Shown here: in pieces, positions 2,860 through 6,577 of the stretch | Layout of the letters: the number at the start of each line of letters is the position of its first letter | How positions within the stretch are numbered: position 1 is the first letter of the stretch | NCBI GenBank assembly: GCA_030039915.1 | Contig: JASHUP010000079.1 | Location: forward strand, 1-16,071 | Source: Thermoplasmata archaeon | GTDB taxonomy: Archaea > Thermoplasmatota > Thermoplasmata > UBA184 | Direction of reading: 5' to 3' | Length of the DNA: 16,071 bases | Program-made: the position numbers and the translations under genes | Notes under the pieces: generated by a model | Seen by the model: the letters and a program-made list of their open reading frames with translations, nothing else | What the model was told of the DNA's origin: nothing | The model's database searches: none

Positions 2860-2871
2860 TACGGAGTGCGA

Positions 2872-3201
2872 ATGCGGGGCGATGGCGTGGAGGGTCCTCG
2901 CCGACGCGAGGTGAGCGACCTCTATGCCACCGTGCTCGAGGTAGTCAAGCGCTACCACGGCGCGGCCCGCATCACCCGGATCTCGTACGGAGCCGGAATG
3001 CCGGTCGACCGGCTTCGCAACTTTGTCGAGCGGCTGCTCTCTCTTGGGCTGCTCAAATCGGAGGAGTCCGACGGGCGAGCGGTCTACGACATCACGTCGC
3101 GAGGGCAGGAGTTCCTCGACACCTACTGGAAGATGCGCGGGTACATCGAGGTCCTCGAAGAGCCTCCCACGCTCGATGAGCGCGCGTCGCGGCGCCGGTG
3201 A
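2872..3201 (+). CDS. Small winged-helix DNA-binding protein (HTH_45 / ArnR1-like)
   Basis: A 109-residue protein. A recognition-helix region, ISYGAGMPVDRLRNFVERLLSLGLL, is followed by a wing and the archaeal signature YDITSRGQEFLDTYWKM. This matches the pattern of small archaeal winged-helix proteins (A-x-[ML]-x3-R-x6-L-x3-GL, then Y-x-IT-x-[KR]-G-x-x-[FL]-L). No ligand-binding domain is present. The ATG is 12 bp after the beta-helix stop; an in-frame GTG at 2866 is possible. Pairing with the filament-like gene suggests autoregulation or DNA linkage of the scaffold, but that is inference. It ends convergently with the rhodanese gene. Confidence 0.8.
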   Translation: MRGDGVEGPRRREVSDLYATVLEVVKRYHGAARITRISYGAGMPVDRLRNFVERLLSLGLLKSEESDGRAVYDITSRGQEFLDTYWKMRGYIEVLEEPPTLDERASRRR

Positions 3202-3237: not shown

Positions 3238-3564
3238 TCAGCCGTACCGCGGGACCGAAGGGTCGACCTTGACGGACCAGGCGTCGATGCCTCCGGCGAG
3301 GTTGGCCACGGACTTGAACCCGAGCCCTTCGAGGTACCCGGCGACCATCATCGATCGGGACCCGCTGTGGCAGTACACGATCACCTCGCGGTCTCGCGGA
3401 ATCTCGCCCGACCGATCGGGGATTTCGCCCATCGGGATGTGGAGGGAGGGTTGTATGACGGCCATCTCGCGCTCAAACGGCTCTCGAACATCGAGGAGCA
3501 GCACTTTCCCGGGGGAAGTCCGCAGCCGCTTCTCGGCGTCGGCCGGTTCGATCTCTCGGACCAT
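3238..3564 (-). CDS. Single-domain rhodanese-like sulfurtransferase
   Basis: A 108-residue single rhodanese domain, likely cytosolic. It has DVREPFEREMA (25-35), the active-site loop CHSGSRS starting at C65 after a VIVY strand, and the closing motif LAGGIDAW (89-96). The catalytic cysteine is present, so it should carry a persulfide; the acceptor is unknown. It lies 55 bp downstream of the CGNR gene on the same strand. A weak box (CCTCTTTGG on the minus strand, about 28 bp upstream) might give it its own promoter. Rhodaneses often occur near copper or persulfide-responsive genes in bacteria, which fits the copper-type genes nearby, but this link is inferred. Confidence 0.92.
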   Translation of the reverse strand: MVREIEPADAEKRLRTSPGKVLLLDVREPFEREMAVIQPSLHIPMGEIPDRSGEIPRDREVIVYCHSGSRSMMVAGYLEGLGFKSVANLAGGIDAWSVKVDPSVPRYG

Positions 3565-3619: not shown

Positions 3620-4195
3620 CTAGGCCCTGCTGGACCGGGAGCGGAGCCGTCGATAGTGACGCTGCACTCGTGCGCGGTTCCCACAGCCGGTGGGCGAACA
3701 CCAGCGCTGCTGGGCACGGTACGCGACGAGGTAGTGAACACACTCCCGACCCTGGCAGCGCCGGATCGGCATGGAAGGGCTTCCGGCCACCATGTCCGCG
3801 AGCGACTGCGCCACGAGGGCCGCCAATCGCGGATAGCTCGACCCTCGCGTCGACGAGTCCGCGAGAACCCATCTCCCGCGAACCCAGCGAAGCACCGAAC
3901 GCGGCCGGGAATGGGCCCACGCCCGATTCACCGCTCGGAGCGCGGTAGGAGGAGGCGGACTGCCGTCCGAGACTGAGGCGAAGAGTCGGCGCAGCTCGGT
4001 CCGCAGGCGGCGGAGAGAACGCACGTCCCGGGACACCAGGCGCGCCCCCACCGAGAGTCCCTTCCGCCGAAACCATCGTCGAGCTTCGTCGAGAGAATCC
4101 AATGGGTCGGGGCCTCGACAACCCGGGCAGGCCACGGTGTTCACGAAATCCAATGCGAGGAGATCGTTCCTCCGACCGGCATGAAGGTGGGCCAC
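3620..4195 (-). CDS. ABATE / CGNR zinc-finger family putative transcription regulator
   Basis: A 191-residue protein from GTG 4195. The N-terminal ABATE domain carries the signature LLALDFVNT (12-20). The C-terminal CGNR zinc finger has C147-x4-C152, then RWCSPTGCGNRARVQRHYRRLR with C166 and C171 as the remaining ligands. These proteins are common putative regulators in actinobacteria and other bacteria, so an archaeal copy suggests acquisition. An extra CPGC pair (C23, C26) follows the LDFVNT motif and could bind metal or form a disulfide. The frame also allows TTG 4216. GTG is preferred because it is the commoner start and a CCTTTAGG box lies about 32 bp upstream. It is divergent from the YHS and ATPase genes and is the obvious candidate regulator for them, though untested. 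Confidence 0.85.
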   Translation of the reverse strand: MAHLHAGRRNDLLALDFVNTVACPGCRGPDPLDSLDEARRWFRRKGLSVGARLVSRDVRSLRRLRTELRRLFASVSDGSPPPPTALRAVNRAWAHSRPRSVLRWVRGRWVLADSSTRGSSYPRLAALVAQSLADMVAGSPSMPIRRCQGRECVHYLVAYRAQQRWCSPTGCGNRARVQRHYRRLRSRSSRA

Positions 4196-4223
4196 CGTCG
4201 CTCCCGAGGGTCCCAAGGAATCT

Positions 4224-4231
4224 CCTAAAGG
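4224..4231 (+). promoter_or_regulatory. TATA-like box in the divergent CGNR / YHS promoter
   Basis: CCTAAAGG centred about 27 bp before ATG 4254, a leaderless arrangement. Read on the minus strand it is CCTTTAGG, about 32 bp before GTG 4195, so one box may serve both directions. A second A/T-rich stretch with the direct repeat GCTAA (4231-4235 and 4240-4244) lies beside it. Confidence 0.5.
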
Positions 4232-4237
4232 CTAAAT

Positions 4238-4273
4238 AAGCTAATGGATTCGGATGGCCGAAGGCATTAGCTT
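4238..4273. promoter_or_regulatory. 36-bp near-perfect palindrome centred on the YHS start codon (candidate operator)
   Basis: Outer arms AAGCTAATG (4238-4246) and CATTAGCTT (4265-4273) are exact reverse complements. Inner arms TTCGG (4249-4253) and CCGAA (4258-4262) are also exact. Only the 2-base internal positions (4247-4248 against 4263-4264) fail to pair, and the 4-base centre ATGG holds the start codon. The site starts 7 bp after the TATA-like box and covers the expected transcription start, so a DNA operator is more likely than an RNA hairpin. Confidence 0.65.
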
Positions 4274-4421
4274 GTCGAAAGTAGTGGACCCGGTCTGCGG
4301 GATGGAGTTCGAGCCGCAGGCCGCCGCCGCGCACGGCCGGTACGGGGCGAAAGAGGTGTACTTCTGTTCCAGCGCCTGTCAGAACGCCTTCGAACGAACG
4401 GGGCCGCCCCGGACGGAATAA
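4254..4421 (+). CDS. 55-residue YHS/TRASH-type metal-binding protein, CopM-like
   Basis: A small stand-alone YHS domain running from ATG 4254 to TAA 4421. It has VDPVCGMEFE (11-20, C15), a short linker, then VYFCSSACQNAF with C38 and C42. The spacing from the first cysteine to the CxxxC pair is 23 residues, identical to that in the N-terminal domain of the ATPase encoded next, whose motif is DPVCGM ... FCSTSC. YHS/TRASH domains bind copper and related soft metals. In Sulfolobales a small TRASH protein, CopM, acts as copper chaperone between a regulator gene and copA, and this gene sits in the same relative place. The start is fixed by the box at 4224 and by the motif position. The ATPase gene follows after 41 bp. 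A copper-chaperone role is an inference by analogy. Confidence 0.85.
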   Translation: MAEGISLSKVVDPVCGMEFEPQAAAAHGRYGAKEVYFCSSACQNAFERTGPPRTE

Positions 4422-4462: not shown

Positions 4463-6577
4463 ATGCCGACGGACCCCGTGTGTGGGATGTTCGTGGAGAA
4501 CACGGAGGGCGCGCTCCGGTTGGTTCGCGAAAATCGTTCTTACTTCTTTTGCTCCACCAGCTGTCTCGAGGCGTTCGCCCACCCCGAGGAGGAGCGACGT
4601 CGTCTCGGGCGACGGCTCGTGGTGGCGTGGCCCCTCGCGGTCGTCGTCCTCGTGCTCTCGTATGCGACGTCCGGGGTCGTCCCCGGTTCCTTCGCCCTCG
4701 TCCTTGCCGGTGTCGTTCAGTTCTATTCCGGCGGTCCATTCTATCGCGGCGCATACGACGCGATTCGAACCCGCGTGGGAAACATGGACCTCCTGATCGC
4801 CGTGGCGACCACGTCCGCGTTCGTCTACAGCGTCGCGGCCCTCGCGCAGGTTCCCGGAATCCCTCGGACGACGTATTTCGATGCTTCGTCCCTGATCGTT
4901 ACGCTCATCCTGACGGGGGCCTATCTCGAGCTTCGGACCCGGGCCCGAGCCGGTTCGGCATTGCGAGAACTCGGGGAGCTCCTTCCCCGAACGGCGTGTC
5001 GGATTGAGCGGGGGGCCGAATCCGAGGTTCGAGCGGCCGAGCTACGCCCGGGCGACCTCGTTCGGATTCGGCCGGGGGCGCGGTTCCCGGTCGATGGCAC
5101 GGTCCTCTCGGGATCGACGAGCGTGGACGAGTCGCTCCTCACCGGGGAGCCTGGCCCGGTCCTCAAGGCCCCGGGTGCGCCCGTGCTCGCCGGTTCCCTC
5201 AATCTCGATGGGGTGACGGACGTGATCACGGGCAAAGTCGGGGCGGACACCTTCGTTGCCGAGATCGGCCGTCTCCTGACCGCCGCCGAGCTCTCCCGAG
5301 TCCCCCTTCAGCGGACGGCGGACCGGATCGCTTCTGCGTTCGTCCCGCTCGTCCTTGCCCTTGCCTTGGCCGCCGGGCTATTGTGGTACTGGCTCGGCGG
5401 AGCCAGCGTCACGGTGGCGCTCCTCATCTTCGTCACCGTCGCGATCACCGCCTGCCCGTGCGCGTTCGGTATCGCGACCCCGGCCGCGATCATCGTGGGC
5501 ACGGGGCGCGCGGCCGGGGAAGGGGTTCTCTTCCGCGGGGAGGACGCCATCGAACGGGCCGCGCGAGTGGACCTCGTGCTGACCGACAAGACCGGAACGT
5601 TGACGAGCGGCGAGGTCGACCTCAGCTCCGTGGACCCCGTTCCTCCGGTCTCCCGGGAAGAGCTGCTGTCTCTCGCCGCCGGCGTCGAGGCCGGCTCGGA
5701 CCATCCGCTCGCTCGGGCCATCCGACTGGCCGCCGGACGGGCCGGAGTGTCGCCCACGGAAGTTCACGAGGTGGTCGTCGAGCCCGGCGAGGGAGTCCGC
5801 GGAACGGTTCAAGGCCGACCGCTGGCCGTCCTGAGGGGAGACGCGGCCCGAACTCGAGGGGTGGACCTGTCGCGCGTCGACGCGTCCATCCGGGCGGCGG
5901 AACAGGTCGGCGAGACCTGGTCGCTCGTCTTCGTCGGCGGCGATGTGGTGGGTCTCCTTCGGTTCCGAGCTCCGATCCTGCCGTCCGCCCGAGGCGCCAT
6001 CGCCGAGCTCCGCGCCGCGTCGGTCGAGGTCGTCATGGTGACCGGGGACGGACCCGCTGCTGCTCGCGAGGCGGCCCGGGAGCTCGGGATCGCCGAATGG
6101 CACGCCGAAGTGCTGCCGGCGGGAAAGGTGGAGTGGGTGCGCCGATACCGGTCGACCGGCCGCTCGGTCGCGTTCGTCGGGGACGGCATCAACGACGCGG
6201 CGGCGCTCGCCGAGGCGGACCTCGGGATCGCCATCGGGACCGGCGCCGAGGTCGCTAAGGAAGCCGGAAGGGTCCTGCTCGTTCGCTCGGACTTCGCCGA
6301 CGTGCCGTTCGCATTATGGATCGCCCGACGCACGGTTCGGCGGGTACGCTCGAACCTTGCGTGGGCGGTCGGGTACAACTCTGTCCTGCTACCGATCGCG
6401 ATGGGCGCCCTCGTGCCGCTGTTTGGATTCTCCGTATATCGAGTGCTGCCGATCGCCGGGGCCCTCGCGATGGCGCTCTCTTCGACCACGGTGGTGCTGA
6501 ACTCGCTCTCCTTACGGTGGAGCACGCCCGGGACCGGCTCAGACGCCGCCCGGTGGCGTGCGAACCTCACTCACTGA
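4463..6577 (+). CDS. copA: P1B-type Cu(I)-exporting ATPase with N-terminal YHS domain
   Basis: A 704-residue membrane pump predicted to expel Cu(I). The N-terminus is a YHS domain (DPVCGM at 4-9, FFCSTSC at 28-34) instead of an HMA domain. About four membrane segments follow (roughly 50-158), then the actuator motif SLLTGEP (224-230). Next come the membrane metal site CPC (331-333), the phosphorylated D375 in DKTGT, the SDHP motif (412-415), TGDG (527-530) and GDGINDAAAL (573-582). The last two helices hold YN (638-639) and MALSS (670-674), which together with CPC match the P1B-1 copper-specific set. The usual D-x-x-R at the P-domain hinge is replaced by APIL (503-506), which is odd. It lies 41 bp after the YHS mini-gene and is probably in one operon with it. 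Copper is the best substrate guess; silver is possible. Confidence 0.93.
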   Translation: MPTDPVCGMFVENTEGALRLVRENRSYFFCSTSCLEAFAHPEEERRRLGRRLVVAWPLAVVVLVLSYATSGVVPGSFALVLAGVVQFYSGGPFYRGAYDAIRTRVGNMDLLIAVATTSAFVYSVAALAQVPGIPRTTYFDASSLIVTLILTGAYLELRTRARAGSALRELGELLPRTACRIERGAESEVRAAELRPGDLVRIRPGARFPVDGTVLSGSTSVDESLLTGEPGPVLKAPGAPVLAGSLNLDGVTDVITGKVGADTFVAEIGRLLTAAELSRVPLQRTADRIASAFVPLVLALALAAGLLWYWLGGASVTVALLIFVTVAITACPCAFGIATPAAIIVGTGRAAGEGVLFRGEDAIERAARVDLVLTDKTGTLTSGEVDLSSVDPVPPVSREELLSLAAGVEAGSDHPLARAIRLAAGRAGVSPTEVHEVVVEPGEGVRGTVQGRPLAVLRGDAARTRGVDLSRVDASIRAAEQVGETWSLVFVGGDVVGLLRFRAPILPSARGAIAELRAASVEVVMVTGDGPAAAREAARELGIAEWHAEVLPAGKVEWVRRYRSTGRSVAFVGDGINDAAALAEADLGIAIGTGAEVAKEAGRVLLVRSDFADVPFALWIARRTVRRVRSNLAWAVGYNSVLLPIAMGALVPLFGFSVYRVLPIAGALAMALSSTTVVLNSLSLRWSTPGTGSDAARWRANLTH

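Follow-up and report, generated by a model that had tools for sequence, protein, structure and literature searches.

Proteins that combine an ABATE domain with a CGNR zinc finger were described in 2009 from a structure, and DNA binding was only predicted for them (PMC2954205). That structure, of Jann_2411 (PDB 3h0n), was interpreted as a probable dimer whose finger is predicted to bind DNA, and the accessible part of the report treats its target and ligand as unknown (PMC2954205). Judged by title, this was the only study of the ABATE/CGNR family itself that we found, and no published operator for the family turned up in the literature searched, most subscription papers lying outside it. Archaeal copper control has been described for cop clusters with CopR, CopT, or CopY, such as that of Pyrococcus CopR, in which a local regulator stands beside a copper exporter and a small metal-binding protein. 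In the CopR cluster, according to the sections of the article available, a (semi-)palindromic site occupies the shared promoter region (PMC7830388). Small YHS modules have also been tied to copper, as in the Mycobacterium phlei adenylyl cyclase, according to the part of that paper at hand (PMC4626032).

The locus analyzed here shares elements with each of these systems. It has a local regulator, a copper-type exporter, a small YHS protein, and a palindromic site between divergent genes. The regulator carries both the ABATE domain and the CGNR finger of Jann_2411, and for it, unlike Jann_2411, a site and an operon can be proposed; its archaeal branch has an extra N-terminal CxxC that 3h0n lacks. 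CopR consists of an HTH plus a TRASH domain and has its motif upstream of the BRE, in the accessible text (PMC7830388), whereas the regulator here is ABATE plus CGNR, with a different motif that lies mostly downstream of the TATA box. The YHS domain, unlike the module described for the M. phlei cyclase in the available text (PMC4626032), occurs both as a stand-alone mini-protein and at the N terminus of the exporter.

Genes surrounding the inverted repeat

The window, by which we mean the whole stretch of 16,071 nucleotides that was analyzed, is archaeal as judged from its genes, among which are those for a replication factor C small subunit and a TYW1 homologue that scored above its cut-off. 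The features of interest are the following.

3620 to 4216, minus strand: divergent ABATE/zf-CGNR gene (PF07336 and PF11706), encoding the proposed operator binder
4118 to 4129, minus strand: CPGC (CxxC) of the CGNR protein, a possible soft-metal site (metal binding inferred)
4233 to 4238, plus strand: TAAATA, predicted TATA box of the YHS-copA promoter; relatives have a TATA-like stretch beside the site
4238 to 4273, no strand: 36-bp inverted repeat as first described; neither the outermost 3 bp at each end nor the inner arms show conservation as pairs
4241 to 4270, no strand: proposed CGNR operator core CTAATG-N18-CATTAG, from conservation, with half-sites 4241 to 4246 and 4265 to 4270 and conserved T 4250 and A 4261
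4254 to 4256, plus strand: alternative in-frame ATG at the repeat center, kept in the protein P0050 and not a start in 17 relatives
4272 to 4421, plus strand: YHS mini-gene of 49 amino acids with probable start TTG 4272 (PF04945, matched with the longer form)
4463 to 6577, plus strand: copA, copper-type P1B ATPase with an N-terminal YHS domain (TIGR01511)

The copA product scored 495.9 bits against TIGR01511 (cut-off, 397), the mark of a copper-translocating P1B ATPase, and it also passed the cadmium subfamily model TIGR01512 with a lower score (346.9; cut-off, 313.5). The gene order of the window recurs in L001, a locus from a Thermoplasmata metagenome-assembled genome (MAG). A rhodanese gene (3238 to 3564) and an HTH_45/Sso10a-like gene (2866 to 3201) also lie beside copA in the window; a rhodanese gene adjoins YHS-copA in locus L060 as well, and in L121 the neighbors are a rhodanese gene and a winged-helix-like frame. 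Positions 1618 to 2859 encode a repetitive bactofilin/FapA-like beta-solenoid protein, here in an archaeon.

The conserved part of the repeat

The initial annotation had drawn attention to the 36-bp repeat, and its geometry was confirmed on direct reading. The arms, 4238 to 4253 and 4258 to 4273, pair at 14 of 16 positions; the outer 9-bp arms (AAGCTAATG/CATTAGCTT) and the inner 5-bp arms (TTCGG, 4249 to 4253; CCGAA, 4258 to 4262) are exact inverted repeats around the center ATGG (4254 to 4257), and CCTAAAGG at 4224 to 4231 ends 6 bp before the repeat. By itself the repeat is only mildly unusual and not rare. Dinucleotide shuffling of the window (300 shuffles) produced a repeat with 14 or more of 16 positions paired in 2.7% of cases for a 4-nucleotide loop and in 16% for any loop of 0 to 10 nucleotides, so the repeat alone proves little. 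It is to be taken as functional because it is conserved in relatives and not because it is palindromic. A scan for a sigma-70 promoter and a terminator found neither.

Absence of the repeat from relatives would have spoken against the initial proposal, but the core proved to be conserved, in relatives of the same order, no close genome having been found. A CGNR search over 400 genomes of the class gave matches in 29, including some weak ones that are likely spurious, and yielded loci L002 to L031, of which L002 duplicates L001. In L001, CTAATG-N18-CATTAG sits between the TATA box and the YHS start, and the consensus across relatives is CTAAYG-N18-CRTTAG. With an 18-bp spacing and at most one mismatch, or the variant CTAACn-N18-nGTTAG (L026 and L027), the site was present in 20 of 21 distinct CGNR loci with a YHS neighbor, the window being additional and L009 the sole exception. 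By that criterion it was absent at three CGNR genes with no YHS neighbor (L014, L019, and L031). Both arms have changed together in L007 and L008, which read CTAACG...CGTTAG. Allowing one mismatch in 24 CGNR-hit genomes brought up some further sites, at most candidates for a wider regulon.

Per-position counts, taken over 22 of 25 rows after L008, L107, and L142 were dropped, showed a T at position 10 in 18 of the 22 and the mirrored A in 15, in addition to the half-sites. The other inner pairs occurred about as often as base composition predicts, and neither the outer AAG/CTT nor the inner TTCGG/CCGAA pairs in relatives more commonly than that expectation. Judged from these rows, the conserved site does not include the window's inner TTCGG/CCGAA. 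The outer AAG overlaps the TATA box and the outer CTT the start codon; the 36-bp appearance and the centering on ATG are thus peculiar to the window, since the true repeat is lengthened there by the TATA box, the start codon, and five inner pairs that are not conserved.

In five loci (L018, L022, L024, L026, and L027), the site lies farther upstream, 82 to 90 nucleotides before the YHS DP codon. In the first three it is upstream of the YHS TATA-like stretch, toward CGNR, a position from which it might mask the BRE or act on the CGNR promoter. L028 (genome G262), from outside the order, combines a CGNR protein that has no CxxC with a TATA-like stretch, CTAACC-N18-GGTTAG, and an MFS-like frame farther on; by its sequence, it is the same design with another cargo.

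Start codon and promoter layout

In 18 loci (the window and 17 relatives with the site at this place, among which L007 and L008 are near-copies), the site begins 46 to 47 nucleotides ahead of the D in DP(V/I)CG. The codon that follows 1 to 2 nucleotides past the 30-bp core is ATG in 17 of the 18 and TTG (4272) in the window. A central in-frame ATG occurs in the window and also in P0050, a close relative protein and the nearest of the YHS proteins retrieved, which reads MAEGISVLKV, with the central M kept and a V at the usual start. Ahead of the 3' arm, 16 of 18 loci have an SD-like GAGG or GAAGG (counted without a control), and on that account a leaderless start at 4254 is disfavored. From these comparisons TTG 4272 is more likely the YHS start than ATG 4254, though without certainty. 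The initial annotation had equated the repeat center with the start codon, which is probably wrong given the ATG that follows the site in the 17 relatives, even though P0050 keeps a central ATG. Its further proposal, a leaderless gene with an operator read through the first six codons, finds no support where the homologous NTG (TTG 4272) follows the site and an SD-like motif is present in 16 of 18 loci.

Of the TATA-like box named earlier, the location of CCTAAAGG 6 bp before the repeat holds. By alignment with relatives, however, whose rows are A/T rich and TATA-like at 4233 to 4238, TAAATA at those positions is the better TATA box. The distance from a TATA box to the transcription start follows a well-known spacing rule. 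Applied to TAAATA at 4233 to 4238, this rule would put the transcription start at about 4260 to 4262.

The site accompanies CGNR in archaea

Exact matches to CTAAYG-N18-CRTTAG were found in 26 of the 400 genomes, one copy each. Thirteen fall within the 29 CGNR-hit genomes, and all 13 have YHS within the fetched stretch; CGNR was seen by a regular expression for 12 and by the CGNR search for the thirteenth. None of the 13 exact sites in the other 371 genomes was near YHS or CGNR. A reversed control pattern had matches in a larger number of genomes than the site itself, so it is the place of the site that counts and not its number.

The comparison was extended to copA genes irrespective of CGNR. 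An initial control, copA in 56 genomes without CGNR, was replaced by a set of 91 CopA matches (E ≤ 1e-150) in 106 genomes of the order, with upstream sequence read as far as contigs allowed (some stretches were cut by contig ends, the shortest being 158 bp). The site was upstream of copA at 23 of 24 loci in CGNR genomes versus 1 of 67 without a CGNR hit (Fisher P = 2.7e-19), absence of CGNR being scored in MAGs and the 23 including two weak one-mismatch matches, L142 (G042) and L121 (the second copA of G128). The lone miss among the 24, L107 (G369), has a degenerate site. No separate YHS mini-gene was recognized at 20 of the 67 CGNR-less loci; among the remaining 47, the site occurs in one, G375, where the contig breaks off inside a CGNR N terminus.

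Shared descent was taken into account on a quick CopA tree of 52 rows, on which CGNR presence changes at least six times on well-supported branches. For this tree, some rows were scored by hand: G042 and G369 counted as lacking the site, G375 as having CGNR, and L121 as having none, despite a CGNR gene elsewhere in its genome. Of six independent pairs, a mean of 5.8 had the site and CGNR changing together and none had them opposed, a marginal result in the pair test (median P = 0.031; range, 0.031 to 0.0625). In G022, the CGNR gene sits on contig C27, yet a one-mismatch site stands at YHS-copA on contig C28, and L060 has the rhodanese gene and YHS-copA as in the window with neither CGNR nor the site. 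G128 (L005, L121, and L186) has two YHS-CopA genes, only one of which is near CGNR and a full site. Because the site tracks CGNR across loci, on the tree, and in G022, and because TAAY repeats lie upstream of bacterial CGNR genes (see below), the divergent CGNR protein is, on this comparative evidence, very probably the binder. The earlier suggestion of a repressor-type operator bound by that protein thus gains support from co-occurrence, position, tree, and bacterial sites.

Properties of the CGNR protein

The protein matched PF07336 with 78.5 bits (cut-off, 24.4) and PF11706 with 34.7 (cut-off, 24), so that both family domains are present; a search for HTH and TRASH domains found none in it. 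Among PDB entries, only 3h0n matched its predicted model (pLDDT, 80.7) at E ≤ 0.001 (E = 3.3e-6; TM score, 0.62/0.65; root mean square deviation [rmsd], 6.5), and the profile match to 3h0n gave E = 8e-5. Given the rmsd, the orientation of the domains may differ from that in 3h0n. The four zinc-type cysteines of the predicted zinc site (C153, C158, C172, and C177 in A1 numbering) are invariant in 23 sequences.

Just past D-F-x-N-T, a CxxC is present in all 41 of the proteins P0001 to P0041 and in none of P0043 to P0049, P0042 being without that end, and in 24 of 25 locus proteins that show the region, L028 being the exception. Among 26 bacterial plasmid loci, the pattern C..C matched within the first 75 residues in 2, each time ahead of the annotated start. 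CxxC is a Cu(I) motif. Together with the copper-type CopA, the CxxC of the archaeal branch suggests copper as the probable signal.

Related repeats upstream of bacterial CGNR genes

A first bacterial set comprised 21 regions from plasmid records. The strict motif with at most one mismatch occurred in 7 of these and was exact in 4, from Mycolicibacterium (L190), Rhodococcus (L191 and L210), and Nonomuraea (L203, gene start guessed), compared with a mean of 0.07 and a maximum of 4 for 199 permuted half-sites. When spacers of 8 to 30 were tried on this set, 18 was best, and 17 came next with 3. In a second set, both the strict motif and a CTNAYG form were absent from all 13 regions, and 6 of the 13 had exact 6-bp arms with a TAAC core and a spacer of 18 to 19. 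The core TAAY-N20/21-RTTA, recognized only after inspection of that second set, is found upstream of bacterial CGNR genes in 8 of 21 regions of the first set, 9 of 13 of the second, and 1 of 14 of a third (8 Embleya, 5 Streptomyces, and 1 Sphingomonas), or 18 of 48 overall. The relaxed site is not universal, as the third set makes plain.

For a control comparison we took 30 of the 34 first- and second-set regions, omitting four found only by PF11706. TAAY-N20/21-RTTA was present in 15 of the 30 upstream regions (9 at spacing 20 and 8 at spacing 21), against a mean of 0.9 matches at spacings outside 18 to 22. Three other stretches of the same loci gave 0 to 1 matches at spacings 20/21; because such words were less frequent in these control stretches altogether, the comparison with other spacings is the fairer one. 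Several bacterial loci have two or three sites. The divergent or near neighbors of the bacterial CGNR genes include MFS, EamA, and multidrug transporters, hydrolases, and monooxygenases.

In eight loci (L206, L220, L222, L224, L226, L210, L202, and L233), (T/G)GTCAA lies within the left half of the site. It resembles a −35 box read in reverse complement, and the bacterial site may therefore overlap the promoter of the divergent gene.

Proposed mechanism and alternatives

We consider it likely that CTAATG-N18-CATTAG (4241 to 4270) is the operator of the divergent ABATE/CGNR protein, which as a dimer or oligomer would repress YHS-copA until copper releases it. A dimer or larger oligomer would bind both half-sites, which reach from just past the TATA box to just before the YHS start codon, and the bound protein would deny the transcription machinery access to YHS-copA. 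A rise in copper or another soft metal would let Cu(I) free the protein, perhaps by binding at the lineage-specific CxxC, and the exporter would be made. The conservation of the site, its position, its co-occurrence with CGNR, the case with CGNR on another contig, and the related bacterial sites are direct observations; physical contact, oligomerization on DNA, repression over activation, the copper signal, and the role of the CxxC are what we infer beyond them. As expected of a repressor operator, the inverted repeat lies at the core promoter and is conserved together with the regulator.

The same protein at the same site might instead activate YHS-copA, or do both, like Pyrococcus furiosus CopR, whose motif lies directly upstream of the BRE and for which activation was proposed, in the accessible part of that work (PMC7830388). 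The loci in which the site is upstream of the TATA box (L018, L022, and L024) or farther upstream (L026 and L027) would fit this. In the 18 loci of the common layout, however, the site spans from downstream of the TATA box to the start codon, where a bound protein should block initiation; repression is favored for that reason, and we regard activation as unlikely. Marginally more doubtful is an operator centered on ATG 4254 as the true start of a leaderless gene, in this lineage only. P0050, with its central ATG, MAEGIS, and V at the usual start, speaks for it, whereas relatives start after the site, the conserved TATA position predicts a transcription start beyond 4254, and the SD-like motif recurs in 16 of 18 loci.

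That another protein binds, such as the HTH_45/Sso10a-like product of 2866 to 3201 or an unlinked regulator, with CGNR as a passenger, appears improbable. A winged-helix gene is nearby, and DNA binding by CGNR is itself deduced, but the site tracks CGNR on the tree and across the 91 loci, and related repeats adjoin bacterial CGNR genes. The winged-helix neighbor in particular was rejected on the evidence of L121, where rhodanese and winged-helix-like neighbors flank YHS-copA and there is just a weak one-mismatch match. A chance palindrome or an RNA hairpin is scarcely credible. The shuffles, in which 2.7% produced an equally good repeat, do not strongly reject chance, but conservation does, since sequence, spacing, and place are preserved and tied to CGNR; an RNA element was rejected as the inner pairs are not conserved and a search of Rfam gave no match.

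Implications for the CGNR family

With the repressing CGNR protein as the preferred reading, a precise 30-bp site is tied to one target operon, which makes the function of the CGNR family directly testable. The wider proposal is that inverted TAAY half-sites 20 to 21 bp apart are the ancestral operator of many bacterial and archaeal ABATE/CGNR regulators, a first target for an orphan family. Its members would be local, non-HTH zinc-finger regulators, each acting at the core promoter from which a divergent gene for export or detoxification is transcribed. In one archaeal branch, gain of the CxxC would have produced a copper sensor. We judge the case for this generalization to be evenly balanced. 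The archaeal branch would exert copper control through a regulator type other than CopR/CopT, and should the bacterial sites also prove to be bound, the rule would aid the annotation of many CGNR genes beside transporters and detoxifying enzymes.
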